Shown: positions 11,743 to 50,664 of the stretch, in pieces | Position numbering within the stretch: position 1 is the first letter of the stretch | How the letters are laid out: each line of letters begins with the position of its first letter | Assembly (NCBI RefSeq): GCF_037996645.1 | Contig: NZ_JBBMXV010000002.1 | Location: 248,001-312,000 of the forward strand | Length of the DNA stretch: 64,000 bases | Direction: 5' to 3' | Source of the DNA: Halalkalicoccus tibetensis | GTDB taxonomy: Archaea; Halobacteriota; Halobacteria; Halobacteriales; Halalkalicoccaceae | Notes under the pieces: generated by a model | Database searches by the model: none | Seen by the model: only the letters and a program-made list of their open reading frames with translations | What the model was told of the DNA's origin: nothing | Made by a program: the position numbers and the translations under genes

Positions 11743-12891
11743 GTGATCAGCGCTCGCTGCAGTGTGGATCGAACACAGCGGACCACCACGGACGTATCGC
11801 GGCGGACGATCATTCGCGGGATGGCGGGGCTGGCCGCGCTGGGCGGGGTCGGTAACGCCGCGGCCGACGAGGAGGACGACCGGGGCGGGGACCCGAGCGC
11901 GGACGTCAGCTTCCCGGATCAGACCGTCGCGAACGACGGCTCCGGGCCGACCGTGACGGTCGACCGCCTCGAGATCAACGAGGGGGGCTATCAGTCGATA
12001 CACCAGTACAGCCGCTTCCAGTTCGCCGAGGGCGAGGACCCCGAGGAGTACGACGTCCCGGTCCCCGACGAGCTCGGAAACCCCGTCTGCGAGTCGCTGA
12101 TCGGCATCACGGAGTATCTCGAACCCGGCGTCCACGAGGACTTGGAGGTGCCGCTGTTCCGATCGGACTCGCCCGCCGTCGAGCTCGGGGCGGCGGAGGC
12201 GGGACCGCTCGAGGAGAGCCAGGTCATGATCGCCATCCCGCACCACAACACGACCGACGAGGGCACGTTCAACTGTCCCGACGACCCCTCGACGCCGGAC
12301 CCGTTCGAGAACGGCGAGGAGGTCGACGGCGCGTTCGGGAACGGCAGCCGCGACGTCGGCGACATCGGCGTCTCCCACGACCTCGCGACGGTGTTGGTCG
12401 AGGACGACGACGAGGAGCAGAAGGACGTCGCCGGACGCGAGGGGGAGCTGATCAGGGCGGGCGTTCTCGTCCCTCAGCCGGTCGGTCCCGATGACGAGGA
12501 GGAGGAAGACATCGAGGAGGAAGGCGACGAGGACGATGAAGACGAGGACGGGGAGGAACGGGAGCAGGAGAACGAAGGGGAGGGGAACGGCGAGGAAGAA
12601 GACGACGATGACGAGGAGAGCGAGGAAGAAGACGACGATGACGAGGAGAGCGAGGAAGAACGGGACGACGGCGACAGCGACGACGAGGACGACCGAGAAG
12701 ACGACGACGGTGACGAGGACGAGGAAAGCGGGAACGAGCAGGAAGGCGAAGGCGACGATGGGGAAGAGGACGGAAGCGACGAGGAACGGAGGGAAGCGGA
12801 AGACGAGGAGGACGACGGTGACAGCGAGAGCGAGGACGACGAAGAAGGGGACGGGAACGAAAACGAGAACGAGGGGAGCGGGGAGAAGTGA
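11743..12891 (+). CDS. Tat-exported DUF7282-like protein with long acidic tail
   Basis: Secreted protein of about 382 residues. After a short leader it has a Tat motif SRRTIIRGMAGLAALGG (about 19-35). A beta-rich domain follows (about 55-230) starting VSFPDQTVANDG, which resembles the DUF7282 domain of haloarchaeal surface proteins. The last 130 or so residues are almost only Glu, Asp, Gly, Ser and Asn, a disordered polyacidic tail. The start is uncertain: GTG 11743, or GTG 11764 closer to the signal. No C-terminal membrane anchor is seen, so it is either released or held by charge. Function unknown. Confidence 0.7.
   Translation: MISARCSVDRTQRTTTDVSRRTIIRGMAGLAALGGVGNAAADEEDDRGGDPSADVSFPDQTVANDGSGPTVTVDRLEINEGGYQSIHQYSRFQFAEGEDPEEYDVPVPDELGNPVCESLIGITEYLEPGVHEDLEVPLFRSDSPAVELGAAEAGPLEESQVMIAIPHHNTTDEGTFNCPDDPSTPDPFENGEEVDGAFGNGSRDVGDIGVSHDLATVLVEDDDEEQKDVAGREGELIRAGVLVPQPVGPDDEEEEDIEEEGDEDDEDEDGEEREQENEGEGNGEEEDDDDEESEEEDDDDEESEEERDDGDSDDEDDREDDDGDEDEESGNEQEGEGDDGEEDGSDEERREAEDEEDDGDSESEDDEEGDGNENENEGSGEK
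12601..12660 (+). repeat. 30-base tandem repeat, two exact copies
   Basis: Positions 12601-12630 and 12631-12660 are identical and encode the ten residues DDDDEESEEE twice, differing only where the next codons begin. The copies lie in the acidic tail of the exported protein. They suggest growth of the tail by slippage or unequal crossover. Confidence 0.9.
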
Positions 12892-16558: not shown

Positions 16559-16630
16559 GCATAATGTGCAGTTAGTTGCTCCGTAGATACCGTTGGGGTC
16601 CCGGACGGTTATATACCAGGCTAGCAGCGG

Positions 16631-18448
16631 TCACGGGCGGGCGATCTCCTCGAAGACCGGCGTCCCGAGGAGCGTGAAGAGGGTGTACAGCTCCGCGGTG
16701 TGGTCCTCGCCGGCCATGTGGGCGTCGTACCGGTCGTAGGCGGCCTCGCGGTCGAGGAAGGGGAGGCCGCGGAGCAGGTCGTCGTTTCGCTCGAGGACCG
16801 TCCGCCCGAAGCCCCGTTCGCGCAGGACCGTCCCGCGGTCGCGCCAGGGCCCCCGCGAGTAGTACGGCCGGGGGAGCTGCTCGTCGTCGACGTGCTTGCG
16901 CCAGAACAGCGAGCCGTACTTCCGGACCTGATCGACGGGGAACCGGCTCGCCGGGCGGGCGCCCGTCTCGGAATGCCTGATCCCCGCGAGTTCCGGCGAG
17001 AGGGCGTCGAGGGCGGCGTTGATCACGTCACGCCGGAGGTGATACCGGATCGGCATCGAGCACGCGAGGTCGATGAAACGGTTGTCGAGAAAGGGCACCT
17101 ACTGGGGGGCCATCTGGGTCAGCCCGAAGTAGTGGTAGTCCCGGTCGTTCGAGAGCGGGTAGTAGGGACTGAACAGCACCAGATCGCGGATCGATGCGTA
17201 CTCGACCCCGCCGAGCGCGACCGACCCGTCGCGTTCATCGAGACTCGAGCGGAGCACCGACCCGAGGTCGGGCGGGGTCTCGACGAACGACGGCAGCGAG
17301 CCGTCCAGCGTGGCGAGGTAGTCCGCGAGCGAGTCGACCTCCCGCTCGATCGGCGTCGCGATCGAGCCGACCGGCCCCAGATCGAGGTCGAAGGCGGGGA
17401 CGATCCCGCCCTTGAACAGCGAGTCGCCGTAGAGCCCGGTGACCAGGACGTCACACTCCTCGCGGATCCGGCCGTCGAAGCCGTTGAGGTGGGCCTGGTC
17501 GAACCGGCCGTTGAAGTTCATGCGGGGCGGGACGTGCTCAAGCATCCGCTCGATGTGGTCGTCGGGGCGCTCGAGCAGTCGGAACTCCGCGTCGGCCATG
17601 AACGCCACGCGCTCGGCGGTGCGGGCCTCGCGGCTCATCCAGTCGGCGAGGTGGTAGGCGACCGGGGGCTCGCCGGCCGCCAGCAGGAGCCGCGAGTCGC
17701 TGCCGCCCGACAGCAGGAGACCGTACCGGCGGTCGTCGGCGGCACGTTCCTCGAACACGCGCTGGAGGAGCTCGACGAACCGATCGACGAAGTACGAGAA
17801 GGACCGGTTGACCGGATCGTACTCGAGGCGCCAGTAGCGCTCGACCTCGATCCCGCCGGTCGTGAGATCGATCGTCGCGATGGATCCGGGCGGGAGCTTT
17901 CGCACCCCTTCGAAGGGCGTCCCGACGCCGGGGACGCAGTTGAACGCCAGATAGGAGTAGAGCCCCTCGGTGTCGGGCTCGGGATCGACGGCGGGGTGGG
18001 CGAGCACCGACTGGATCGACGTCGAGAAGACGACCCCCGCGTCCGTCTCGGCGTAGTAGACGGGGTGGGTGCCGAGACGGTCGGTGACGATCGCGAGCCG
18101 GTCGCGGTCGCGCTGGTGGACGAAGACGCTCGCCGCAGCGTTCATCCCCCGAGCGAATTCGAGTCCGTGCGAGCGGTAGAGCCGGACGACGTACTCCGCG
18201 GCGGTGTACTCGCCCGCGTAGCGGTTCTCGTAGCCGCCGTCCTCGAAGCCGTGAACGTCGCCGAACGTCCAGACCGCGTCACCCTCGACCCGGACGGGCT
18301 CTCCCGTCGGCTCGTGTGTGACCGACCGGAGCGACAGCCCCTCGGCGGCGGTCGTCTCGACGGCCTCCTCGCCGCTCCATCGGAGCGGCTCGATCGGATC
18401 GGTCACCTGCCGCTCCACGTCACCCGTCACTCCGACGACTCCGACCAT
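16631..18448 (-). pseudogene. asparagine synthase-like gene interrupted by an in-frame TAG
   Basis: Reads as one frame of about 605 codons apart from a TAG at 17099-17101, just before VPFLDNRFIDLA, the conserved PFLD segment of the synthetase domain. The N-terminal region resembles the class II glutaminase fold but begins MVGVVGVTG, with Val in place of the nucleophile Cys2, so glutamine cannot be hydrolysed there. The ATP-pyrophosphatase signature SGGSDSR is present. Related glutaminase-dead enzymes include beta-lactam synthetase. Codon use remains normal on both sides of the TAG, so the lesion is recent, a sequencing error, or read through. TAG is an ordinary stop elsewhere in the window. 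Confidence 0.8.
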
Positions 18449-18595: not shown

Positions 18596-20044
18596 ATGAG
18601 CGACGACCAGGAGCTCGGCATCACCGAGTCCAAGGAGCACAGCCCCGGCGAGTGGTACGCCGAGGTCGTCCGCAAGGCGAAGCTCGCCGATTACGCCCCC
18701 ATGGGCGGGTTCATCGTCACCCGCCCGCGGGGCTACGCGCTGTGGGAGGCGATCCAGGACCGGCTGGACGGCTGGTTCAAGGAGACGGGCGTCCAGAACG
18801 CCTACTTCCCGCTTTTCATCCCCGAGAGCTACCTCGAGCGCGAGAAGGACGTCGTCGAGGGGTTCGACCCCGAGGTCGCGTGGGTCACCCAGGGCGGCCA
18901 CGACGAGTTAGAGGAGCGCCTCGCCGTGCGCCCGACCAGCGAGTCGATCATCGCCCCCTTCCTGAGCCAGTGGATCCGCAGTCACCGCGACCTGCCCCTG
19001 CGAGTGAACCAGTGGTGTTCCGTGGTTCGGTGGGAGGCAACCGAGACGAAACCGTTCTTCCGCACGAAGGAGTTCCTCTGGCAGGAGGGCCACACCGCCC
19101 ACCGCGACGAGGCCGACGCCTGGGACGAGACGATGACCCGCCTCGAACAGTACGAGAAGGTCTACGAGGACGTGCTCGCGATCCCGGTGATGCGCGGGAG
19201 AAAGCCCGACCACGACAAGTTCCCCGGCGCGGACACGACTACTACTGTGGAGGCGCTGATGCCCGACGGCAAGTCGGTCCAGGGGGGGACGAGCCACCAC
19301 CTGGGTCAGTCGTTCGCCGAGGCGTTCGACATCACGTTCGTCGACGAGGACGAGGAGGAGACCGTCGCCCACACCACCTCGTGGGGCCTTTCATGGAGAG
19401 CGATCGGCGCGCTGATCATGACCCACTCGGACGACCAGGGGCTCGTCCTCCCGCCGACGGTCGCCCCCGAACAGGTCGTGATCGTCCCGATCTGGGGGGA
19501 GGAGAACCGCGAGGAAGTGCTGGAGTACGGCGAGGGGATCGCCGCCGAGCTCGAGGAGGCGGGCTTTCGCGTCGAGTTCGACGACCGCGACGAGCGCAAC
19601 CCGGGCTTCAAGTTCAACGAGTGGGAGCTGCTCGGCACCCCGCTGCGCCTCGAAATCGGCCCCAACGAAGTCGCGGACGGCGAGGCGACGGCCGTCCACC
19701 GTCCCGACGGCGAGAAGAGCGTCGAGGACCGCGAGGGGATCGCAGAGAGCGTCCAGGAACACCTCGACACCGTCTACGCGAAGCTGTACGCGGCCGCCGA
19801 GGAGAACCTCGAGGAGAACGTCCGGGACGCGGAAAGCCGCGAGGAGATCCTCGGGACGATCGGCCGCTTCGGCGGCTACGTCCGCGCGCCGTGGTGCGGC
19901 AAGGAGGAGTGCGAGACGGCGATCAAGGACGAGATCGCCGCCGAGATCGTGATGGTTCCGATGGAGGGCGACGATCCCGACGGCGAATGTGCGATCTGTG
20001 GGGAGGGTGCGGAGGAGACGGCCTACTTCGCGAAGTCCTACTGA
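18596..20044 (+). CDS. proS: prolyl-tRNA synthetase (archaeal/eukaryotic type)
   Basis: Class II aminoacyl-tRNA synthetase that charges tRNA-Pro. It has 482 residues, the usual length for the archaeal form without an editing insertion. Motif 2 and 3 regions are visible: VRWEATETKPFFRTKEFLWQEGH and WGLSWRAIGALIM. The anticodon-binding domain follows at about 290-390. The C-terminal zinc domain has CGKEEC and CAICG and ends in the typical terminal Tyr (YFAKSY). It is transcribed alone. The 370 bases to gltB hold no gene. Confidence 0.97.
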   Translation: MSDDQELGITESKEHSPGEWYAEVVRKAKLADYAPMGGFIVTRPRGYALWEAIQDRLDGWFKETGVQNAYFPLFIPESYLEREKDVVEGFDPEVAWVTQGGHDELEERLAVRPTSESIIAPFLSQWIRSHRDLPLRVNQWCSVVRWEATETKPFFRTKEFLWQEGHTAHRDEADAWDETMTRLEQYEKVYEDVLAIPVMRGRKPDHDKFPGADTTTTVEALMPDGKSVQGGTSHHLGQSFAEAFDITFVDEDEEETVAHTTSWGLSWRAIGALIMTHSDDQGLVLPPTVAPEQVVIVPIWGEENREEVLEYGEGIAAELEEAGFRVEFDDRDERNPGFKFNEWELLGTPLRLEIGPNEVADGEATAVHRPDGEKSVEDREGIAESVQEHLDTVYAKLYAAAEENLEENVRDAESREEILGTIGRFGGYVRAPWCGKEECETAIKDEIAAEIVMVPMEGDDPDGECAICGEGAEETAYFAKSY

Positions 20045-35480: not shown

Positions 35481-35523
35481 CTTTCGACGCCCGTACCAGA
35501 ACGGGGAGGGTGACGCAGGGGTA

Positions 35524-37386
35524 ATGAAGGACGATGGGACGACGACGCGTTCGGGGGTCGGCGTGAGCCGGGCGGACCCACGGTGGGTCCGGGTCGCACT
35601 GATCGGGCTGGTGTTGTGTGCGCTGCTCGCAAGCGCCCCGCTCGCCGGCGCGCACGCCTATCTGAACGAGAGCGAGCCGGGCAACGGCGAGGCGGTCGAG
35701 GAGGTTCCCGAGGAGGTGGGCCTCTCCTTCTCCGGCGACGGCGTCCAGATCGCCGAAGTGAGCGTCACCGGGCCCGACGGGGAGGACGTGAGCGGCCCCG
35801 CCCATGTGGACCCCGACGACCCCCGGCTCGTGGCCGCCCCGATCGAGGAGGCCGGTGAGGGCGAGAGAGAGGGGATCTACGTCGTCGAGTGGGAGGTGCT
35901 CGCCGACGACGGCCACACCACCTCGGGGACGTTCCTCTTCTCGGTCGGCGACGGGCCGCCGGACCGCGAGCAGGTGATCGGGCTCCACGAGGACGACGAG
36001 GAGGGCGTCTCCGGGATCGAGGCGGCCGCCAACGGGCTGGTCCTGCTCTCGTTGATCGGGCTCGTCGGCGTCCCCGTCAGCCTCTGGATCGCGATCTACC
36101 CGCTCGCGGGGCGGTTCGGCGCCCCCCTCGGACGCGCCGAGGAGCGCGCGCGGACGGTGCTGCTCGCGTCGGGGGCGGCCATGCTCGCGGGCGTCGTCGG
36201 GCTGGGGCTCGCACGCAGCGCGTCGATCGCCCCCTCGCTTTCGTCGAGCGCCGTCGGGCGGTTCCTCGGGACCTCGCTGGGAGCGCTCTGGATCGCCCAG
36301 CTCGTGGTCGCCGGGGCGGTCGTCGGCGTTCTCCTAGTAGCTCGGCGCCGGCCCCTCGCGCGGCGCTACTGGCTCGGCGGTGCGGTCGCGGGCGGACTCG
36401 CCGTCCAGCTCTCGGTGAGTGCGACGAGCCACTCGGCGAGCCTGATCGACCGGTTCCAGGGGACGGCGACGGACTTCGCGCACATCGGCGGGGCCGCGCT
36501 CTGGGTCGGCGGGCTGCCCGCCCTCGGGCTCGTCCTGCCGGCCGTCCTGCGGCGCGCCGAGGCAGAGCGCGCGGTCGCGGCCGCCGCGATCCGGCGCTTC
36601 TCGGTCGTGGTGCTGACGGGGGTGACGCTCGCGGTGACGACCGGGCTCGTGCTCGCGGCGTGGCACGCGCCCGACCCCGAGGGGCTGTGGACCACCCTCT
36701 ACGGGACCCTCCTCTCGGCGAAGACGCTGCTGGTCGTCCTGGCGCTGGGCCTCGGCGGGCTCACGCGGGCCGTCCTGTTGCGCCGCCTCGAGGACGGGCG
36801 GGCCGACGTCGGGAGCGTCGTCCGCGCGGTGCGGATCGAGGGCGGCGTCCTGCTGGCCGTCGTGCTGGTCTCGGGGCTGCTCACCGCCGCGCCGACGGCC
36901 GCCGTCGCCGGGGCCGACGGGCCGAGCGAGGCGACGGCCGAGAGCGGGAACGTCGAGCTCACCGTGTTGCCCGCCGAGGACGGCGGGAGCGCCCTGTTGG
37001 TCGACGAGGACGAACCGATCGTCCTCGACGCGCGGTTCCTCGCTGACGGCGAGCCCGTCCCCGCGGAGGAGCCGACGCTGCTGTTGCGAAACGACCAGTC
37101 CGACGTCACGCTCACGACCGATCTGGAGGAGACCGAGGGGGGCGTCTACTCGACGGTCGAGACCCTGCCCGCGGTCGGCAGCTGGGAGGTCCGGGTCTCG
37201 GGCCAGGTCGATGACGGCTACGAGAGCGAGTGGTTCCGGCTGTTCAACGTGCCCGACCACCCCGCCCACGACGACCACGCGAGCGAGGGGACGGCCTTCG
37301 CCGCCTGGCTGCGGATCGGCGCGCTCGCGACCGGCCTGCTCGGGACGCTCGCGGTCCTGATCGAGACGGCCCGGTTCGAACAGTGA
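35524..37386 (+). CDS. CopC-CopD fusion, copper-handling membrane protein
   Basis: A 620-residue protein that joins an exported CopC domain to a CopD membrane domain. After a signal helix (about 22-42) the mature part starts AHAYLNESEPGNGE, where His44 is the first copper ligand. The second CopC histidine lies in DDGHTTSGTF. The following region has eight helices with the CopD pattern (FAHIGGAALWVGGLP). A second extracellular beta domain of about 120 residues near the C-terminus and one last helix end the protein. It likely imports or buffers copper. Neighbours are a regulator and a lipoprotein. Confidence 0.9.
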   Translation: MKDDGTTTRSGVGVSRADPRWVRVALIGLVLCALLASAPLAGAHAYLNESEPGNGEAVEEVPEEVGLSFSGDGVQIAEVSVTGPDGEDVSGPAHVDPDDPRLVAAPIEEAGEGEREGIYVVEWEVLADDGHTTSGTFLFSVGDGPPDREQVIGLHEDDEEGVSGIEAAANGLVLLSLIGLVGVPVSLWIAIYPLAGRFGAPLGRAEERARTVLLASGAAMLAGVVGLGLARSASIAPSLSSSAVGRFLGTSLGALWIAQLVVAGAVVGVLLVARRRPLARRYWLGGAVAGGLAVQLSVSATSHSASLIDRFQGTATDFAHIGGAALWVGGLPALGLVLPAVLRRAEAERAVAAAAIRRFSVVVLTGVTLAVTTGLVLAAWHAPDPEGLWTTLYGTLLSAKTLLVVLALGLGGLTRAVLLRRLEDGRADVGSVVRAVRIEGGVLLAVVLVSGLLTAAPTAAVAGADGPSEATAESGNVELTVLPAEDGGSALLVDEDEPIVLDARFLADGEPVPAEEPTLLLRNDQSDVTLTTDLEETEGGVYSTVETLPAVGSWEVRVSGQVDDGYESEWFRLFNVPDHPAHDDHASEGTAFAAWLRIGALATGLLGTLAVLIETARFEQ

Positions 37387-37441
37387 TTGGTTTCGACGAC
37401 CGTACCATAACCCACACTAATACAGGGTGGGAAGTACGGGT

Positions 37442-38662
37442 ATGGACACGATCAGGCGGAGGCGGTTCGTGCAGGTCGCCGGCGGCGGGCTCGTGGTCGC
37501 GCTCGCGGGCTGTACCGACGGCGACGCGGAAGGCGAGGACGACCACGGCGATCACGACGGGCAGGACGAGGACGAGGGGGACGAGGAGGGTGACGAACCC
37601 GGAAGCGAGGGGCTGCTCTACGCGTTCGCGCCCGAGACGACCGCGCTGATCGACCCCGAGGCGGGCGAGGTCGTCGACGAGCTCGACGCGGGCGGCGAGT
37701 GGGGCGACCCGCGGATCACGCGCGGCGGTTCGCGGATCCTCGTCAACGAGGGGACGGCGGCACAGGTCGTCGTGATCGACACCGAGGCCCGCAAGGTGGC
37801 GAGCGAGGTCGACGTCGGACCCGACCCGACGCATATCTACAACCCCGTCGAGGGGGAGGTTTGGAGCCATTCTGACGCCGAGGGCGCGTTCTACGTCATC
37901 GATACCGAGGAACTGGAGGTGGTCGACGTCGTCGAGGCCGGGCTGGAGAGCGAGGGCCACGGCAAGCTCCTCTCGCATCCCGACCTCGACTCAAAGGCTT
38001 ACGCGATGAACGTCAACGACGCCGCCGGGCTCGTGATCGACCTCGAGGCACGCGAGCGCGTCGAGGAGTTCCTCCTGGAGGGCGAGGGCGGCACCCACTA
38101 CAAGGCCTACGCGCCCGAGTCGGGGCTCGCGTACTTCCAGCGCGCCGGCGAGCCGGACGGGACCGACGTGATCGACACCGCGACCGACGAGGTCGTCGAT
38201 CGCCTCGAGCTCTCGGGCGGGATGTACCTCAGTCCCGACGAGGAGCTGCTCGGCCTGCTCGACGAGGAGGGCGTCCACTTCATCGACGCGACCAGCGAGG
38301 AGAGCGAGATCGTCGCGTCGATCGAGCTCGAGGGCGAGCCCGGCGCGCTCCGATACCACGAGGGCGACGACGGGCGCTACGGCTTCACGACGAACACCAC
38401 GACCCCGGACGTCTCGGTGCTCGACCTGGAGGGCTTCGAGGAAGTCGAGCGGATCGAGACGGGCGAGACGGAGGGCGAGTACCGCGCGGGCGTCGCGAGC
38501 GGGGGCTACTTCGCCACGACCGCCGACGCGGACGGGACGGTGGCGATCGTCGACATGGACGCCCGGGAGCTGGCCGCCGAGGTCGAGGTGAGCGAGGGCG
38601 TCGACACGCTGCAGTTCGTCGGGGGTGAGGGGACCTCGGGCGTCGGCTACACCGGGCAGTAA
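37442..38662 (+). CDS. YncE-like beta-propeller lipoprotein
   Basis: Exported lipoprotein of 406 residues. MDTIRRRRFVQVAGGGLVVALAGC gives a Tat signal with a lipobox ending at Cys24. A linker rich in Asp, Glu, Gly and His (HGDHDGQDEDEGDE) follows, then a propeller (about 60-406) with repeated segments such as VVVIDTEARKVASEVDV and VVDVVEAGLES. The His/Asp linker could bind metal. It lies 55 bases downstream of CopC-CopD and is probably co-transcribed, suggesting a role in copper handling outside the cell. Confidence 0.8.
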   Translation: MDTIRRRRFVQVAGGGLVVALAGCTDGDAEGEDDHGDHDGQDEDEGDEEGDEPGSEGLLYAFAPETTALIDPEAGEVVDELDAGGEWGDPRITRGGSRILVNEGTAAQVVVIDTEARKVASEVDVGPDPTHIYNPVEGEVWSHSDAEGAFYVIDTEELEVVDVVEAGLESEGHGKLLSHPDLDSKAYAMNVNDAAGLVIDLEARERVEEFLLEGEGGTHYKAYAPESGLAYFQRAGEPDGTDVIDTATDEVVDRLELSGGMYLSPDEELLGLLDEEGVHFIDATSEESEIVASIELEGEPGALRYHEGDDGRYGFTTNTTTPDVSVLDLEGFEEVERIETGETEGEYRAGVASGGYFATTADADGTVAIVDMDARELAAEVEVSEGVDTLQFVGGEGTSGVGYTGQ

Positions 38663-42684: not shown

Positions 42685-42805
42685 GTCCGTCGGGTCGTGG
42701 CTGGAGCCGATAAACGTTCGTGCGCCGGTCGGGTCCCGTATCACACTTAGGTGGCCTGCAGGTGATTGATGTTCGCTTATGACTCGTACGGGCAACGGGG
42801 GAAGT

Positions 42806-45034
42806 ATGAGCGAACCGGAACCCGACGAGGGGCTCGACGACGAGACCGACTCCCGGGACCGAACGGAGGAGGGGGAGCCGGGGACGAGCGACGACGCTGA
42901 CGGGGTCGACGAGGACAGCAAACACGACCAGCTCGACGAGGTCCGCGAGAACCCGGAGGGCGAACAGCTGACGACCGACCACGGCGTCAAGGTAAGCGAC
43001 ACCGACAGCTCCCTGAAGGCCGGCAAACGGGGTCCGACGATCATGGAGGACTTCCACTTCCGGGAGAAGATGACCCAGTTCGACCACGAGTCGATCCCCG
43101 AACGGGTCGTCCACGCCCGCGGGACGGGCGCACACGGCTACTATCAGCCCTACGAGGATCCGGACCTCGGCGACGAGTACGACGACCTCGAGGAGCTGAC
43201 GAAGGCGAAGGTGCTGACCGATTCCGACCAGAAGACGCCCGTATTTACGCGGTTCTCGACGGTCGTCGGCTCGCGGGGCTCCTCGGACACCGTGCGGGAC
43301 GTCCGCGGGTTCGCGACGAAGTTCTACACCGAGGAGGGCAACTGGGACCTCGTGGGGAACAACATGCCTCCGTTCTTCATCCAGGACGCGATGAAGTTCC
43401 CCGACCTGGTTCACGCGATCAAGCCCGAACCCGACGACGGGATGCCCCAGGCCTCGGCGGCCCACGACACGTTCTGGGACTTCGCCTCGCTGAAACCCGA
43501 GATCTCGCACATGATCATGTGGGTGCTCTCGGGGCGGGCGCTGCCGCGAGCCTACCGGATGATGCAGGGCTTCGGCGTCCACACCTTCCGGCTGGTCAAC
43601 GAGGACGGCGAGTCGGTGTTCGTCAAGTTCCACTGGACGCCCAAGCTCGGCACCCACCAGCTCGTCTGGGACGAGACGACGAAGCTCTGGGGCAAGGACT
43701 CGGATTTCAACCGCAAGGGTCTCTACGACGTCATCGAGGAAGGGTACGACCCCGAGTGGGAGCTGGGCATCCAGGTCTTCGACGAGGAGCAAGCCGAGGA
43801 GTTCGACTTCGACGTCCTCGACCCGACGAAGATCGTCCCCGAGACCGAGGTCCCGGTCCGGCCGATCGGGAAACTGGTCCTGAACGAGACGCCCGACAAC
43901 TTCTTCGCCGAAACGGAGCAGGTCGCGTTCCACCCCGGGAACGTCGTCCCCGGGATCGACTTCTCGAACGACCCGCTGCTTCAGGGTCGGCTCTTTTCCT
44001 ACCAGGACACCCAGCTCAACCGCTTCGGGAGCGCCAACTGGGACGAGATCCCGATCAACCGCCCGATCGCCGAGCGTCACAACAACCAGCGCGCCGGCTT
44101 CATGCGCCAGGAGATCAACGAGGGGAAGGTCTCGTACAAACCCAACTCGATCGGCGACGACGACCCCCAGGAGGCGCCCGCCGAGGAGGGCGGCTACGAG
44201 CACTTCGCCGAGAAGATCGACGGGAAGAAGATCCGCGAGCGAAGCGACAGCTTCGAGGACCACTTCACGCAGGCGCGGCTGTTCTGGAACTCCATGTCCG
44301 AGCCGGAGAAACAGAACATCGTCGACGCCGCCCACTTCGAGCTCGGGAAGGTCGAGCGCATGGAGATCCGCGAGCGGATGGTCTACGACCTGTTCAACAA
44401 CGTCGACCACGAGTTCGCAAAGCGCGTCGCCGAGGGGATCGGCGTCGAGCCCCCCGAGGAGCCCGGCGACGAGATGCCGACCCACGACCGGGAGGACCCC
44501 TCCCTCAGCATGGAGAACCGGACCCCGGACACGATCGAGACCCGCAAGATCGCGATGCTGATCGACGACGGGTTCGACGACGAGCACGTCTCGAAACTCC
44601 GGTCGGCGCTCGAGGAGGAGGGCGCCCGGGTCAAGGTCGTCTCGAAGGTGCTCGGCGAGAAGTCCGGCGCCGACGGCGGGACGGTCGAGCCCGACAAACA
44701 CCACGTCGCGGCGGCCTCGGTCTCGTTCGACGCGGTCGTGATCCCCGGCGGCGAGGAGAGCGTCGAGACGATGCGCGGCCAGGGCGATCCGAAGCACTTC
44801 GTCGCCGAGGCGTTCAAACACTACAAGCCGATTGCCGCGCTCGGCGAGGGGACGGCGCTGTTCGAGGACGTCGACCTGCCCGACACCGAGATCGCCGACG
44901 AGGGCGAGCTCGTATCGGACGCGGGGGTCGTCACCTGTCGGAGCGACGATCTCGAGGCGTTCGCCGAGGAGTTCGTCGACGCCATCGCCCAGCACCGCCA
45001 CTGGGAGCGCGACCCCGAGGAAGTGCCCGCATAG
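42806..45034 (+). CDS. katE: large-subunit heme catalase with C-terminal DJ-1/PfpI-like domain
   Basis: Breaks down hydrogen peroxide. The 742-residue protein follows the large clade II catalase layout. A long acidic N-terminal arm (about 1-75) comes before the heme-binding core (75-560). The core shows catalytic His103 in [12 protein letters not shown] at 184-186, and the heme-ligand Tyr near 399 in [11 protein letters not shown]-terminal flavodoxin-like DJ-1 domain runs from about 585 to the end. ATG 42806 is preferred over 42779 because the latter adds nine residues unlike the family; both are possible. Confidence 0.95.
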
Positions 45035-45075
45035 CGGGTCGACCGTGCCGGCGGACCCGTCGCAGGTGATCCGGC

Positions 45076-46653
45076 TCAGTCGTGGCGGAACGCGCGGCTC
45101 CCGGTGAAGACCATCGCCATGTCGTGTTCGTCCGCGGCCTCGATCACGTCCTCGTCGTTCACGCTCCCGCCGGGCTGGATCACCGCCTCGATGCCGGCCT
45201 CGGCGGCCTCCGTGATCCCGTCCGGGAACGGGAAGAACGCGTCCGAGGCCATCACGGCTCCTTTCGAATCTTTCCCCTCGGCGTGCTCCTCGGCCTTCAT
45301 CGCCGCGAGCCGGACGGCATCGACCCGGCTGACCTGCCCCATCCCGACGCCGACCGTCTCGGTACCGTCGGCGAACAGGATCGCGTTCGACTTGACGTGC
45401 TTGATGGTGTGCCAGGCGAACAGCAGCGATTCGAACTCCTCCTCGCTCGGCTCGCGCTCGGTGACGACCTCCAGGTCCCCGCGCGCAAGGTGCTGGTCGT
45501 CGGCCTCCTGAACTAGCCGCCCGCCCGCGAGCTTCTTCTCCCGGAGCGGGGGTTCCAGATCGCCGAAGGGTCCCGTATCGAGCACCCGGAGGTTCTCCTT
45601 TTCCCGGAGGACCGAAAGCGCGTCGTCGGTGTAGTCGGGCGCGACGACGACCTCCTTGAACGAGTCGACGATCGCGGTCGCCGTGGGCTCGTCACACGCG
45701 CGGTTCAGCGCGACGATCCCCCCGAAGGCGCTCATCGGGTCCGTCGAGAGCGCGCGGTCGTAGGCCTTTTCGATAGTGTCGGCCGTGGCGCATCCGGCGG
45801 GGTTGGTGTGTTTGATCACCGCCGCGGCGGGCTCGTCGAACTCCTTGACCAGTCCGAGCGCCGCGTCGGCGTCGTTGTAGTTGTTGTAGGAGAGCGCCTT
45901 CGCGTCCTCGTTCAGTTGTTCCGCGTGGACCACCGTCGCGCGCTCTTCGGTTTCGTCGCTGTAGAGCGCCGCGTCCTGATGGGGGTTCTCGCCGTAGCGA
46001 AGCGCCGTCGAGCGGTCCTCGCCGGTGAGGCGACGGGCTGGGAACTCCTCGTCCTCGTCGCCCTCGATCCGGACCTCGTCGCCCTCCACTTCGACCTTCC
46101 CCTCGGCGACCCACCGCACCGCCCGCGGATACGCGCGAAACTCCGCGTCGTGGAGCACGCGCTCCTTCAGGCTCGCCGCGTCGTCGTCCTCGTAGACCGG
46201 GACGGGCTCCTGGGTGACGATCGGCCCGGCGTCGACCTCCTCGGTGGCGATATGCACCGTGCAGCCCGTGACCCGCGCGCCCGCCTCGAGCACCTGCTCG
46301 TGGGCGTCGGTTCCCGGAAACGACGGGAGCAGGCTCGGATGGACGTTCAGCGTCAGGGGCGCGCTCCCGAGGAACTCGTCGGTCAGTACGCGCATGTAGC
46401 CGTCGAGACAGACCAGGTCGAGGTCGTAGCCCTCGAGGGCCTCGAGGATCCGCCGTTCGTGTTCGATCCGGGCCTCGCTCTCCTCCCGTTCGACGACCGC
46501 CGTGGGGATCCCGCGGTCCTCGGCCTTGTCCAGCACGGGCGCGTCGGCGTGGTTCGACAGCACCACCGCGAGCTCCGCCCCGCCGGGCGCGCCGTCGGCG
46601 ATCCGCATGAGGTTCCTGCCGCGATTGCTCGCCAGCCCTGCGACCTGTGTCAT
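45076..46653 (-). CDS. purNH: bifunctional GAR/AICAR formyltransferase (PurN-PurH)
   Basis: Fusion of two folate-dependent purine enzymes, 525 residues. The N-terminal PurN-like part (about 1-190) shows SNRGRNL, LNVHPSLLPSFPG with the catalytic His, and EEVDAGPI. The C-terminal AICAR transformylase part (about 215-525) has KHTNPAGC and ends SRAFRHD. The IMP cyclohydrolase domain of bacterial PurH is absent, as in other haloarchaea, where a separate PurO does that step. The gene is divergent from purB across 166 bases. T-rich sequence about 25 bases upstream likely holds the TATA box. Confidence 0.93.
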   Translation of the reverse strand: MTQVAGLASNRGRNLMRIADGAPGGAELAVVLSNHADAPVLDKAEDRGIPTAVVEREESEARIEHERRILEALEGYDLDLVCLDGYMRVLTDEFLGSAPLTLNVHPSLLPSFPGTDAHEQVLEAGARVTGCTVHIATEEVDAGPIVTQEPVPVYEDDDAASLKERVLHDAEFRAYPRAVRWVAEGKVEVEGDEVRIEGDEDEEFPARRLTGEDRSTALRYGENPHQDAALYSDETEERATVVHAEQLNEDAKALSYNNYNDADAALGLVKEFDEPAAAVIKHTNPAGCATADTIEKAYDRALSTDPMSAFGGIVALNRACDEPTATAIVDSFKEVVVAPDYTDDALSVLREKENLRVLDTGPFGDLEPPLREKKLAGGRLVQEADDQHLARGDLEVVTEREPSEEEFESLLFAWHTIKHVKSNAILFADGTETVGVGMGQVSRVDAVRLAAMKAEEHAEGKDSKGAVMASDAFFPFPDGITEAAEAGIEAVIQPGGSVNDEDVIEAADEHDMAMVFTGSRAFRHD

Positions 46654-46819
46654 GTCCCAAGGGGCGACCGCGAGTTCAAAAACCGTTGCGATCCAACGAA
46701 GGAGGGTATGCGTATTCGTGGATATACTACCCACAACTGGGAACCAAGAACGGGTATTCTATGCACGGTAATGGGCTGACACCGACACGGTTTTGCCGCG
46801 GGCGTCGGTAGCCCGGCGT

Positions 46820-48214
46820 ATGGACGACGACCAGCGTTCGGACCCCCTCTACGCCGTCTCGCCGCTCGACGGCCGGTACGCGGGACGGACCGCGCCGCTC
46901 GCGCCCTACGCGAGCGAGGCCGCGCTCATGCGTGCCCGCGTTCGCGTCGAGGTCGAGTACCTCATCGCGCTCGCGGACCTCGAGGCCACCCCGCTCTCGA
47001 TCGACGAGGGGGGACGCGCGGCGCTCCGCGAGAGCTACCGGGAGTTCGATGCGGAGGACGCCCGGCTGATCAAGCGCATCGAGACGGAGGGCTACGGCGA
47101 GTACAGTGCCACCAACCACGACGTGAAGGCGATCGAGTACTTCGTGCGCGAGCGCCTTCCCGACGGCGTCGGGGAGCAGTGGATCCACTTCGGGCTCACG
47201 AGCGAGGACGTGAACAACCTCGCACACCGGCTGTTGGTCGGACCCGCGATCGAGGAGGTGCTCGTTCCCGCGCTCCGGGAGGTCCGCGATTCGCTCGTCG
47301 ATCTCGCCCGCGAGAACCGGGACGTGCCGATGCTCGCGCGGACCCATGGCCAGCCCGCGACGCCGACGACCTTCGGCAAGGAGATGGCCGTCTACGCCGC
47401 GCGGATAGGGAGATCGCTGGGACGAATCGAGGGCGCCACAGACGGACTTTCGGGCAAGCTCGCGGGCGCTTCGGGCACCTACGCCGCTCATACCGTTGCG
47501 TACCCCGACGTCGACTGGCGGGGCTTCTCCGAGGAGTTCGTCGAGGGGCTCGGCCTCGAACACACGTCCCTCACCACGCAGGTCAACCCGTGTGACGACC
47601 TCGCCGAACTCTTCGACGCGCTCAGGGGCGCCAACAACGTCCTGCTGGACCTCGACCGGGACATGTGGCTCTACGTCTCGGACCGGTATCTCGGCCAGCG
47701 CGCCGTCGAGGGGGAGACAGGCTCCTCGACGATGCCCCACAAAGTCAACCCGATCGACTTCGAGAACAGCGAGGGCAACCTCTCGAAGGCCAACTCCGAC
47801 CTGACGTTTCTCGCCGACTACGTCACCACCTCGCGGCTGCAACGGGACCTCTCCGATTCGACCGTAAAGCGCAACATCGGCGCGGCGCTCTCCCACTGTC
47901 TGATTGGCTACGGGAAGTGCGAGACCGGGCTCTCGAAGGTGACGCCCAACGAGGCGGTCATGCGCGAGGAGCTCGAGGAGAACCCCGAGGTGATCGGCGA
48001 AGCAGTGCAAACGGTCCTCAGGCGCGAGGGCCACACAGACGCCTACGAGCGGGTAAAGGAGCTCACGCGGGGGCGGCGGACCTCCCTCGACGATTTCAAG
48101 GCGCTCTTTCGGGAGCTCGACGTCGACGAACGGACCCGTGAACAGTTGCTGGCACTGACGCCCGCGAGCTACACCGGAACGGCCGACGAGCTGGTCGAGG
48201 ACCTCGGTCGATAG
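46820..48214 (+). CDS. purB: adenylosuccinate lyase
   Basis: Acts twice in purine synthesis, on SAICAR and on adenylosuccinate. The 464-residue protein has the fumarase-superfamily signature GSSTMPHKVNP near residues 303-313. Other conserved parts include LTSEDVNNLAHRL and RTHGQPATPTTFGKE. ATG 46820 gives the usual N-terminus (YAVSPLDGRYAGRT). A TTTTG box about 25 bases upstream supports a short leader. It is divergent from purNH, so both may answer to the same control region. Confidence 0.96.
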   Translation: MDDDQRSDPLYAVSPLDGRYAGRTAPLAPYASEAALMRARVRVEVEYLIALADLEATPLSIDEGGRAALRESYREFDAEDARLIKRIETEGYGEYSATNHDVKAIEYFVRERLPDGVGEQWIHFGLTSEDVNNLAHRLLVGPAIEEVLVPALREVRDSLVDLARENRDVPMLARTHGQPATPTTFGKEMAVYAARIGRSLGRIEGATDGLSGKLAGASGTYAAHTVAYPDVDWRGFSEEFVEGLGLEHTSLTTQVNPCDDLAELFDALRGANNVLLDLDRDMWLYVSDRYLGQRAVEGETGSSTMPHKVNPIDFENSEGNLSKANSDLTFLADYVTTSRLQRDLSDSTVKRNIGAALSHCLIGYGKCETGLSKVTPNEAVMREELEENPEVIGEAVQTVLRREGHTDAYERVKELTRGRRTSLDDFKALFRELDVDERTREQLLALTPASYTGTADELVEDLGR

Positions 48215-48361
48215 AACAGGCAGAAAAACCCGCGTGAGCGACGCACTGGATCCGAACGGTGCGTTCTCCGTCACGCCACGCCTCCGAGAGCAGCTTCGAC
48301 GCATGCGTTTTAGCTTCCTATCTAGTAAAATTACTTAATTTATATTAGTAAGCTAGAAATG

Positions 48362-48377
48362 TATTCCAAAAGGAATA
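48362..48377. promoter_or_regulatory. inverted repeat in an AT-rich promoter region
   Basis: TATTCC (48362-48367) and GGAATA (48372-48377) flank AAAA. The element lies 27-42 bases before the ATG of the propeller lipoprotein, within an unusually AT-rich stretch (48304-48385) that also contains TTTATATTA. Confidence 0.5.
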
Positions 48378-48403
48378 GTATGGCGTGAGTAGGAAGGTAC
48401 AGT

Positions 48404-49678
48404 ATGGATCGCAGACAGTTCATCGGGCGATCGGCGGCAGTAGCCTGTTCGGGCGTCGCGCTCGCGGGGTGTACGGGCGAGGAGGGTTCGGAGGGGGTCG
48501 AAGGTACGGAGGGCGAGTCCGGCGGTCCCGCCGACGACGGGGCTGAAGAGGAGCAGGGATCCGAGCCCGAACCGGAGGGTGGCGACGGGGAACCCTTCTA
48601 TCACTACGATCTCGACGTCCACGAGGAGCGGGCGAACGGGCAGCCGGTGTGGATCGACCGGGACGAGCGGCTGTACGGACGCGACGGCCTCGACGTGATC
48701 GTCAGCGACGACTGGTGGGAGACGACGGAGATCCTCTACTCCTTCGGGGACGAAGAAGGGCGAGTCGAGACGGTGATCGTCCCCGACAGCGGGAACGTCA
48801 TCGTCGCGGTCGGGGGGCGGGATGACGTCGGCGGGAGGGTCTACCGACTCGCCGACGACCTCGACGACCACGAGCTGCTCTACCAGTTCGATTACGGCCG
48901 CGTCTCCAACAGTATGGGCCACGCCGTCCACGAGGACGTCGTCGTGATCTCCTGTTACGGGATGTCGGATTTCGAGAACGACCGGCATCCGAACGAGGTG
49001 ATCCTCTCGACGGACGGCGGCGGGAGCTTCGAGCAGGTGCTCGAGGTGCCGCTCGAAACCGAGGACGCGGCGAACCACCACGTCCACGACGTCGAGTACG
49101 ACCCGTATGCCGAGCGGATCTGGGTCGCCCACGGCGATCACGGCAACTCACAGCTCTTCTGGAGCGACGACCACGGGGATTCGTGGGAGGAGATCGACGA
49201 ACAGGGGGCGATCACGATGGTCACGCAGGTCGCCGCCTTCGAGGACTGCGTCGTGCTCGGGACGGACGGAACGCCCGAAGGGATCATGCGATGGGAGCGG
49301 GAGTCTCCGGAGGACACGCCCGACCGAGCGAGCGACTTCGAGCGGGTGCACGTCCAGATCCAGCTCGATCCCGATGACGACACGATGGAGGTCTACGCCC
49401 GCCGGCGCTGGCACGTCCGAGAGGACGACGGCCGGGAGCTCTGTCTGATGCCCTTCGGCTACTCGCCGATGCACGACACCGCCGAGGACTCCGTCCTCCT
49501 GGCGAGCGTCGACGGCGACGAGTGGTACGAGCTGCTTCGAACCGAGACGCGAGACATCCTGCTCACGAACGTCATGGGCCCGCTCTCGATGGACGGCGAC
49601 CTGCGGACGCTCGTCTCCGACAGCAACCAGGGCGATGGCCACCAGTTCGACGCGACGATCCCGAGGTTCTGGGACTGA
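48404..49678 (+). CDS. beta-propeller lipoprotein (BNR/sialidase-like)
   Basis: Exported lipoprotein of 424 residues with a Tat signal (MDRRQFIGRSAAVACSGVALAGC, lipobox Cys23). A Glu/Gly-rich linker (about 24-65) precedes a propeller with BNR-like Asp-box segments: VILSTDGGGSFEQVLEV and LFWSDDHGDSWEEID. Proteins of this shape bind or process glycans or act as extracellular sensors. No catalytic residues of true sialidases can be identified. It stands alone between purB and the cobalamin-binding protein. Confidence 0.75.
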   Translation: MDRRQFIGRSAAVACSGVALAGCTGEEGSEGVEGTEGESGGPADDGAEEEQGSEPEPEGGDGEPFYHYDLDVHEERANGQPVWIDRDERLYGRDGLDVIVSDDWWETTEILYSFGDEEGRVETVIVPDSGNVIVAVGGRDDVGGRVYRLADDLDDHELLYQFDYGRVSNSMGHAVHEDVVVISCYGMSDFENDRHPNEVILSTDGGGSFEQVLEVPLETEDAANHHVHDVEYDPYAERIWVAHGDHGNSQLFWSDDHGDSWEEIDEQGAITMVTQVAAFEDCVVLGTDGTPEGIMRWERESPEDTPDRASDFERVHVQIQLDPDDDTMEVYARRRWHVREDDGRELCLMPFGYSPMHDTAEDSVLLASVDGDEWYELLRTETRDILLTNVMGPLSMDGDLRTLVSDSNQGDGHQFDATIPRFWD

Positions 49679-49752
49679 CGGCGAGAAGGGGCGTTCGGGT
49701 TCCCGCCGGGCGCTTCCTCGGGTAATAAGACCCGGCCGCGCCATCGAGAGGT

Positions 49753-50643
49753 ATGAACGTCGTTTCGACCTCGCCCTCGGGCACGGAGATCCTCTGTGCG
49801 CTCGGGGTCGACCCGGTCGCCGTCTCGCACGCCTGTGACTACCCGCCGCGAGTGGCGGATCTCCCCTCGATCGATTTCTCCAGGGTGCGCGGCGAGTCGA
49901 GCGCCGAGCGCCACGACCGCGTGCGGACCGTCAGCGCCGAGGGGACGGTGTATCGGCTCGACGTCGAGACCCTTCGCGACGCCGAGCCCGACCTGATCCT
50001 CAGCCAGGAGGTCTGTGGGGTCTGTGCGGTGGACACGACCCTCGTCGACGAGGTGCTGGAGGACCTCGATTCGGATCCCGACGTCGTGGGGCTGCACGCC
50101 AGTCAGTTGGAAGACCTCTTCTCCTGCATCGAGCGGGTCGGCGAGGCCGTCGGGCGCGAAAAGCGGGCGGGGGAGCTGAACGACGAGCTCCGCGAGCGCC
50201 TCGCGGGAATCGAAGCGCGCACGGAGGGGATGGAGCGCCCCCGGGTGGCGATCCTCGAGTGGCTCGACCCGCCCATCGCCGCCGGCAACTGGGTGCCCGA
50301 ACTGGTCGGGGTCGCCGGCGGGAAGTACGGACTGGCCGAGCCCGGCGATCGGACCGTCGAGGTCGACTGGGCCGAGCTCAGGGAGTACGACCCCGAGGTC
50401 CTCGTCGCCGCGCCCTGCGGGTTCGACGTCGAGGTGACCCTCACCCGGAGCGGGGAGCTGACCGAGCGCGAGGGCTGGGCCGAGCTGTCGGCCGCCCGAA
50501 ACGGCCGGGCGTACGCCATGGACGGCGCGAGCTACCTCAACCGCTGGAGCCCGCGGCTGGTCGAGGCGGCCGAGCGGCTCGCGGCCTGCTGTCATCCCGA
50601 GGAGTTCGGCGAGCCGCCCGCGGACGTCGCGACGCTCCGATAG
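49753..50643 (+). CDS. BtuF-like cobalamin-binding protein without export signal
   Basis: Protein of 296 residues with the two-lobed periplasmic-binding fold of BtuF-type proteins. The N-lobe pattern is VVSTSPSGTEILCALGVD; the middle helix is at about 125-155; the C-lobe includes WVPELVGVAGGKYGLAEPGD. The CxxC in LSQEVCGVCAVD is typical of the family in haloarchaea. Unlike true BtuF it has no signal peptide or lipobox, so it likely works inside the cell or relies on another route. No BtuC/BtuD genes are adjacent. Confidence 0.8.
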   Translation: MNVVSTSPSGTEILCALGVDPVAVSHACDYPPRVADLPSIDFSRVRGESSAERHDRVRTVSAEGTVYRLDVETLRDAEPDLILSQEVCGVCAVDTTLVDEVLEDLDSDPDVVGLHASQLEDLFSCIERVGEAVGREKRAGELNDELRERLAGIEARTEGMERPRVAILEWLDPPIAAGNWVPELVGVAGGKYGLAEPGDRTVEVDWAELREYDPEVLVAAPCGFDVEVTLTRSGELTEREGWAELSAARNGRAYAMDGASYLNRWSPRLVEAAERLAACCHPEEFGEPPADVATLR

Positions 50644-50664
50644 CGCGAAGAAGCGAAGAGAAGG

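Follow-up and report, generated by a model that had tools for sequence, protein, structure and literature searches.

An in-frame TAG interrupts an otherwise open asparagine-synthetase-like gene of Halalkalicoccus tibetensis, and this locus raises the question of whether the codon is read through to give a complete enzyme, whether it marks a gene that has just been lost, or whether it is a wrong base in the assembly. The stretch of DNA analysed (64,000 nt, hereafter the window) is part of contig 2 of an assembly of 3.6 Mb that is 97.3% complete, and it was compared with the matching neighbourhoods of three congeners, namely G001, G003 (Halalkalicoccus paucihalophilus) and G006. Most likely, the genetic code is read here in no novel manner, and the window carries either a knockout mutation of an ordinary kind and recent date or a single wrong base.

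The interrupted gene and its enzyme family

The gene lies at 16628..18448 on the minus strand (the earlier note had given no strand), with its ATG at 18448, its last sense codon at 16633-16631 and a terminal TGA at 16630-16628. Both the frame and its translation bear out the original observation of about 605 codons broken by one TAG at 17099..17101 (minus strand), which is codon 450, stands in the context CAG TAG GTG CCC TTT CTC GAC and is the sole lesion in the 605-codon frame. The translatable N-terminal 449 codons (17102..18448, minus strand) encode a degenerate glutaminase-like domain, in which residue 2 is Val in place of Cys2, as had also been noticed, and the PP-loop SGGSDS at residues 247-252, whose S247, G248, G249, D251 and S252 are invariant in the 20 sequences aligned. 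The downstream 155 codons with the terminal TGA (16628..17098, minus strand) remain open and contain the invariant PFLD motif. The divergent neighbour, the prolyl-tRNA synthetase gene proS (18596..20044, plus strand), served as locus marker in the relatives.

The read-through protein matches both PF00733 (Asn_synthase; 33 bits, cut-off 21) and PF13537 (GATase_7; 30 bits, cut-off 25) and aligns end to end with intact relatives, which makes the frame, as far as sequence can tell, more than a chance ORF. A profile score over the curated cut-off, together with the SGGxDS PP-loop, places it in the asparagine synthetase superfamily (PF00733). With the AsnB-type asparagine synthetases (TIGR01536; E. 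coli AsnB, 1ct9) it shares the two-domain layout of PF13537 and PF00733, the PP-loop and the PFLD motif; unlike them, however, it lacks Cys2 and reaches 92.3 bits against an equivalog cut-off of 267.1 for TIGR01536, and the EARVPFLD motif of AsnB has become PQ-W/TAG-VPFLD in the window family, with the Glu of EAR lost. Beta-lactam synthetase (1jgt) and CarA (1q15) belong to the same superfamily and are also matched by the family profile, in a match that spans the N-terminal and PP-loop part and leaves the C-terminus outside; no lactam-biosynthesis genes were found among the scanned neighbours of the gene. Closer at hand, the same genomes hold haloarchaeal Asn-synthase-like paralogues with 36-44% identity and the same layout, at different loci. 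A structure prediction from three sequences gave a pLDDT of 35. From what is known of the superfamily, the intact protein was probably an ATP-using, amide-forming enzyme, in which the SGGxDS PP-loop would bind ATP, a carboxylate would be activated and an amide formed, the glutaminase half being degenerate.

The earlier note had tied the Val at position 2 to a different amide-forming reaction and had counted it among the clues to the meaning of the stop. The residue itself stood up, its bearing on the stop did not: Val2 is present in 5/5 full-length orthologues and in 2/2 paralogues with the N-terminus in the alignment and, since every full-length homologue aligned carries it, including those with no stop, it has no weight as a clue to the TAG. 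As a mark of special chemistry tied to the stop it was thus rejected; on the alignment it is, instead, an old feature shared throughout this haloarchaeal family, unlinked to the interruption, and the locus may be used as a warning that a missing Cys2 and a stop in the same gene can be unrelated.

Distribution, codon 450 and constraint

A search for relatives retrieved H. paucihalophilus, whose copy is 74% identical across residues 1-449, and also a Halococcaceae MAG, at 51%; end-to-end alignment with intact genes gave 68-75% identity in four congeners and about 49% in one sister-genus genome. The gene is full length in five of the seven genomes of the genus, the window genome counted (at 67-80% identity when compared with the copy of H. 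paucihalophilus), and in the sister-genus genome G008, which is the Halococcaceae MAG. N-terminal fragments at contig ends were found in the congener G004 (71% complete), where the fragment lies beside proS, and in the sister-genus genome G009. In the congener G005 (95% complete) another gene stands upstream of proS and the only homologue, elsewhere in the genome, is a 44% paralogue; in the sister-genus genome G007 (99% complete) the gene is missing at proS. The search of 195 genomes of the order at E 1e-150 added no further genome and, within the genomes sampled, the orthologue family is apparently limited to one haloarchaeal family. Because it is absent at the proS locus of both near-complete genomes, G005 and G007, the gene is, on this distribution, a narrow, accessory and dispensable one.

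With regard to gene order, in G005 a homologue (L128) of the DUF7282 gene found at 11743-12891 of the window sits close upstream of proS, so that in G005 the segment lying between the two in the window is either absent or placed elsewhere.

The comparison of close relatives at the stop site, suggested in the earlier note, gave a uniform answer: codon 450 is TGG (Trp) in 5/5 full-length orthologues (G001, G002, G003, G006 and G008/L010), and the TAG of the window is one G-to-A transition away. A pseudogene made by a nonsense mutation is expected to have intact relatives in which the position of the stop holds a sense codon, as it does here. In the paralogues the same position is mostly Arg, with some Gly or Val, and in E. 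coli AsnB it is the Arg of EARVPFLD. Trp450 is therefore, in these alignments, conserved within the orthologue group alone and, since the paralogues have Arg, Gly or Val, the position would not be one at which to expect a special amino acid such as pyrrolysine.

Constraint was estimated as dN/dS by simple counting (Nei-Gojobori with Jukes-Cantor), a procedure that, under the strong GC bias of these genes, bounds the age of the break only roughly. Against G003, pairwise dN/dS is 0.222 on the 5' side of the stop (449 codons) and 0.246 on the 3' side (155 codons); against G006 the values are 0.220 and 0.238, respectively, and GC3 is 0.942 after the stop vs 0.922 before it. Private amino-acid changes number 16 in the window lineage, compared with 16 in G001, 13 in G003 and 22 in G006. 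On the window-lineage branch, omega of the gene is 0.295 (bootstrap 0.236-0.399) and that of eight concatenated neighbouring genes 0.182, a ratio of 1.6, with ratios of 1.1 to 1.8 in the three other lineages. Purifying selection thus looks alike before and after the stop, and the window lineage does not look unusually relaxed. Constraint lasting through most or all of the branch indicates that the stop is very recent or that the base is not real. A long-standing pseudogene was rejected, there being neither extra lesions nor relaxed constraint. Unrelaxed constraint, on the other hand, is equally expected of an intact gene that has been mis-sequenced and of a gene whose stop is suppressed.

Decoding of UAG in this genome

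The open and constrained frame downstream of the TAG is also what would be seen if the codon were read through, as pyrrolysine or, by way of a suppressor tRNA, as Trp or some other amino acid, to give a full-length enzyme. The searches for pylS and pylT proposed in the earlier note do not support this. The pyl gene search, run on the 97% complete assembly, covered PylS and PylB; the best PylS match in the genome scored 22.3 bits, where the cut-off is 178, at a locus whose translation reads as histidyl-tRNA synthetase, and the best PylB match 20.9 bits against 348. A survey of tRNAs found 44 genes, ARAGORN giving anticodons for 42 of them, and none of the 44 has a CUA anticodon, in a set from which the survey missed tRNA-Trp and some Pro isoacceptors. 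The two genes left without an anticodon, one of them intron-bearing and likely to be tRNA-Arg(TCT), the other a degenerate tRNA-like sequence, show no CUA either. A search with a pattern that combines a CUA anticodon loop and a T-loop gave hits in two tRNA-Gly genes and at two further sites, neither of which the Rfam scan recognises as a tRNA. Pyrrolysine proteins go with genomes that carry pylS, pylT and pylBCD; here PylS and PylB are at background and no CUA tRNA was found at the sensitivity used, and pyrrolysine decoding was rejected on these searches.

Furthermore, TAG is a routine terminator, closing 14 of the 48 matched frames of the window (an approximate count, a few of these frames being antisense), so genome-wide reassignment of UAG was rejected. 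The RNA just 3' of the stop folds no more stably than its shuffles (z -0.02), leaving readthrough with no stimulating structure, and the congeners have a plain Trp at the site. Although a divergent suppressor could have escaped a scan that missed Trp and some Pro tRNAs, we consider readthrough of this TAG very improbable, and still slighter is the chance that a haloarchaeon with no pyrrolysine genes suppresses this UAG through an unrecognised tRNA and so makes the full-length enzyme. In the consulted part of a review on archaeal recoding, pyrrolysine is placed in methanogens, halophilic methanogens included, and no haloarchaeon is named (PMC8211752). At the level, mostly, of titles and abstracts, the literature (including PMC5198076 and PMC8211752) reports neither pyrrolysine in Halalkalicoccus nor the Asn-synthetase-like family in haloarchaea.

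Among the tRNA-like sequences, L085 (G000:C1:596593-596671; 36.7 bits) has no recognisable anticodon and may be a tRNA remnant.

Translation could also stop at the TAG and restart at the adjoining GTG, producing chains of 449 and 155 residues that assemble into a split enzyme. The GTG follows the TAG immediately, and the list of open reading frames begins a 155-residue frame there; however, the bases immediately upstream show no ribosome-binding site, the relatives have ACG, GCC or GCG in place of the GTG, the break separates conserved parts within one domain and none of the orthologues is split at that point. This is, in our judgement, the least probable of the explanations considered.

Recent nonsense mutation or sequence error

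The gene is thus probably an accessory member of the asparagine synthetase superfamily just inactivated by a single nonsense mutation, that is, an ordinary nascent pseudogene. The Trp450 codon TGG would have become TAG by a G-to-A change; translation should then end after 449 residues, short of the invariant PFLD and of the remainder of the synthetase domain on its C-terminal side, and would presumably leave an inactive fragment of a dispensable gene, with decay probably to come. In the either/or of the earlier note, very recent loss agrees with the one G-to-A step, the lack of any other lesion and the equal constraint on both sides, while readthrough found no support.

The main rival to a nascent pseudogene is a single-base assembly error, in which case the strain carries TGG and the gene is intact. 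The conserved codon is one base away, the gene has no other sign of decay, and the base call comes from a single assembly of one strain. The quality of the surrounding sequence speaks against an error: among the window frames matched to relatives, none was found broken apart from the asparagine-synthetase-like gene, and this makes the local error rate look low. The remaining internal stops checked in matched frames all either precede a plausible start or belong to a wrong frame, and poor local assembly was rejected on these grounds; one suspect, at 46400-48205, turned out to encode an unbroken adenylosuccinate lyase. Moreover, a dispensable gene is easily lost in earnest. We therefore regard an error as unlikely, though far from negligible.

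In G003 an Asn-synthase-like paralogue of H. paucihalophilus (L037, G003:C5:370461-372292) is split by a frameshift near 371003-371015, so it is nothing unusual here for genes of this kind to be lost.

For a nascent pseudogene, the consequences are modest: in-frame stops in single dispensable genes are often seen, and the present one matters little. The case illustrates how recoding can be told apart from a newly arisen nonsense mutation once congeners are compared. The intact orthologues, in turn, make up a small family of enzymes, uncharacterised and probably amide-forming. Elsewhere in the window, three segments (35500-38600, 42700-45050 and 48250-50650) have no match in the neighbourhoods of the relatives compared and are possibly lineage-specific insertions.
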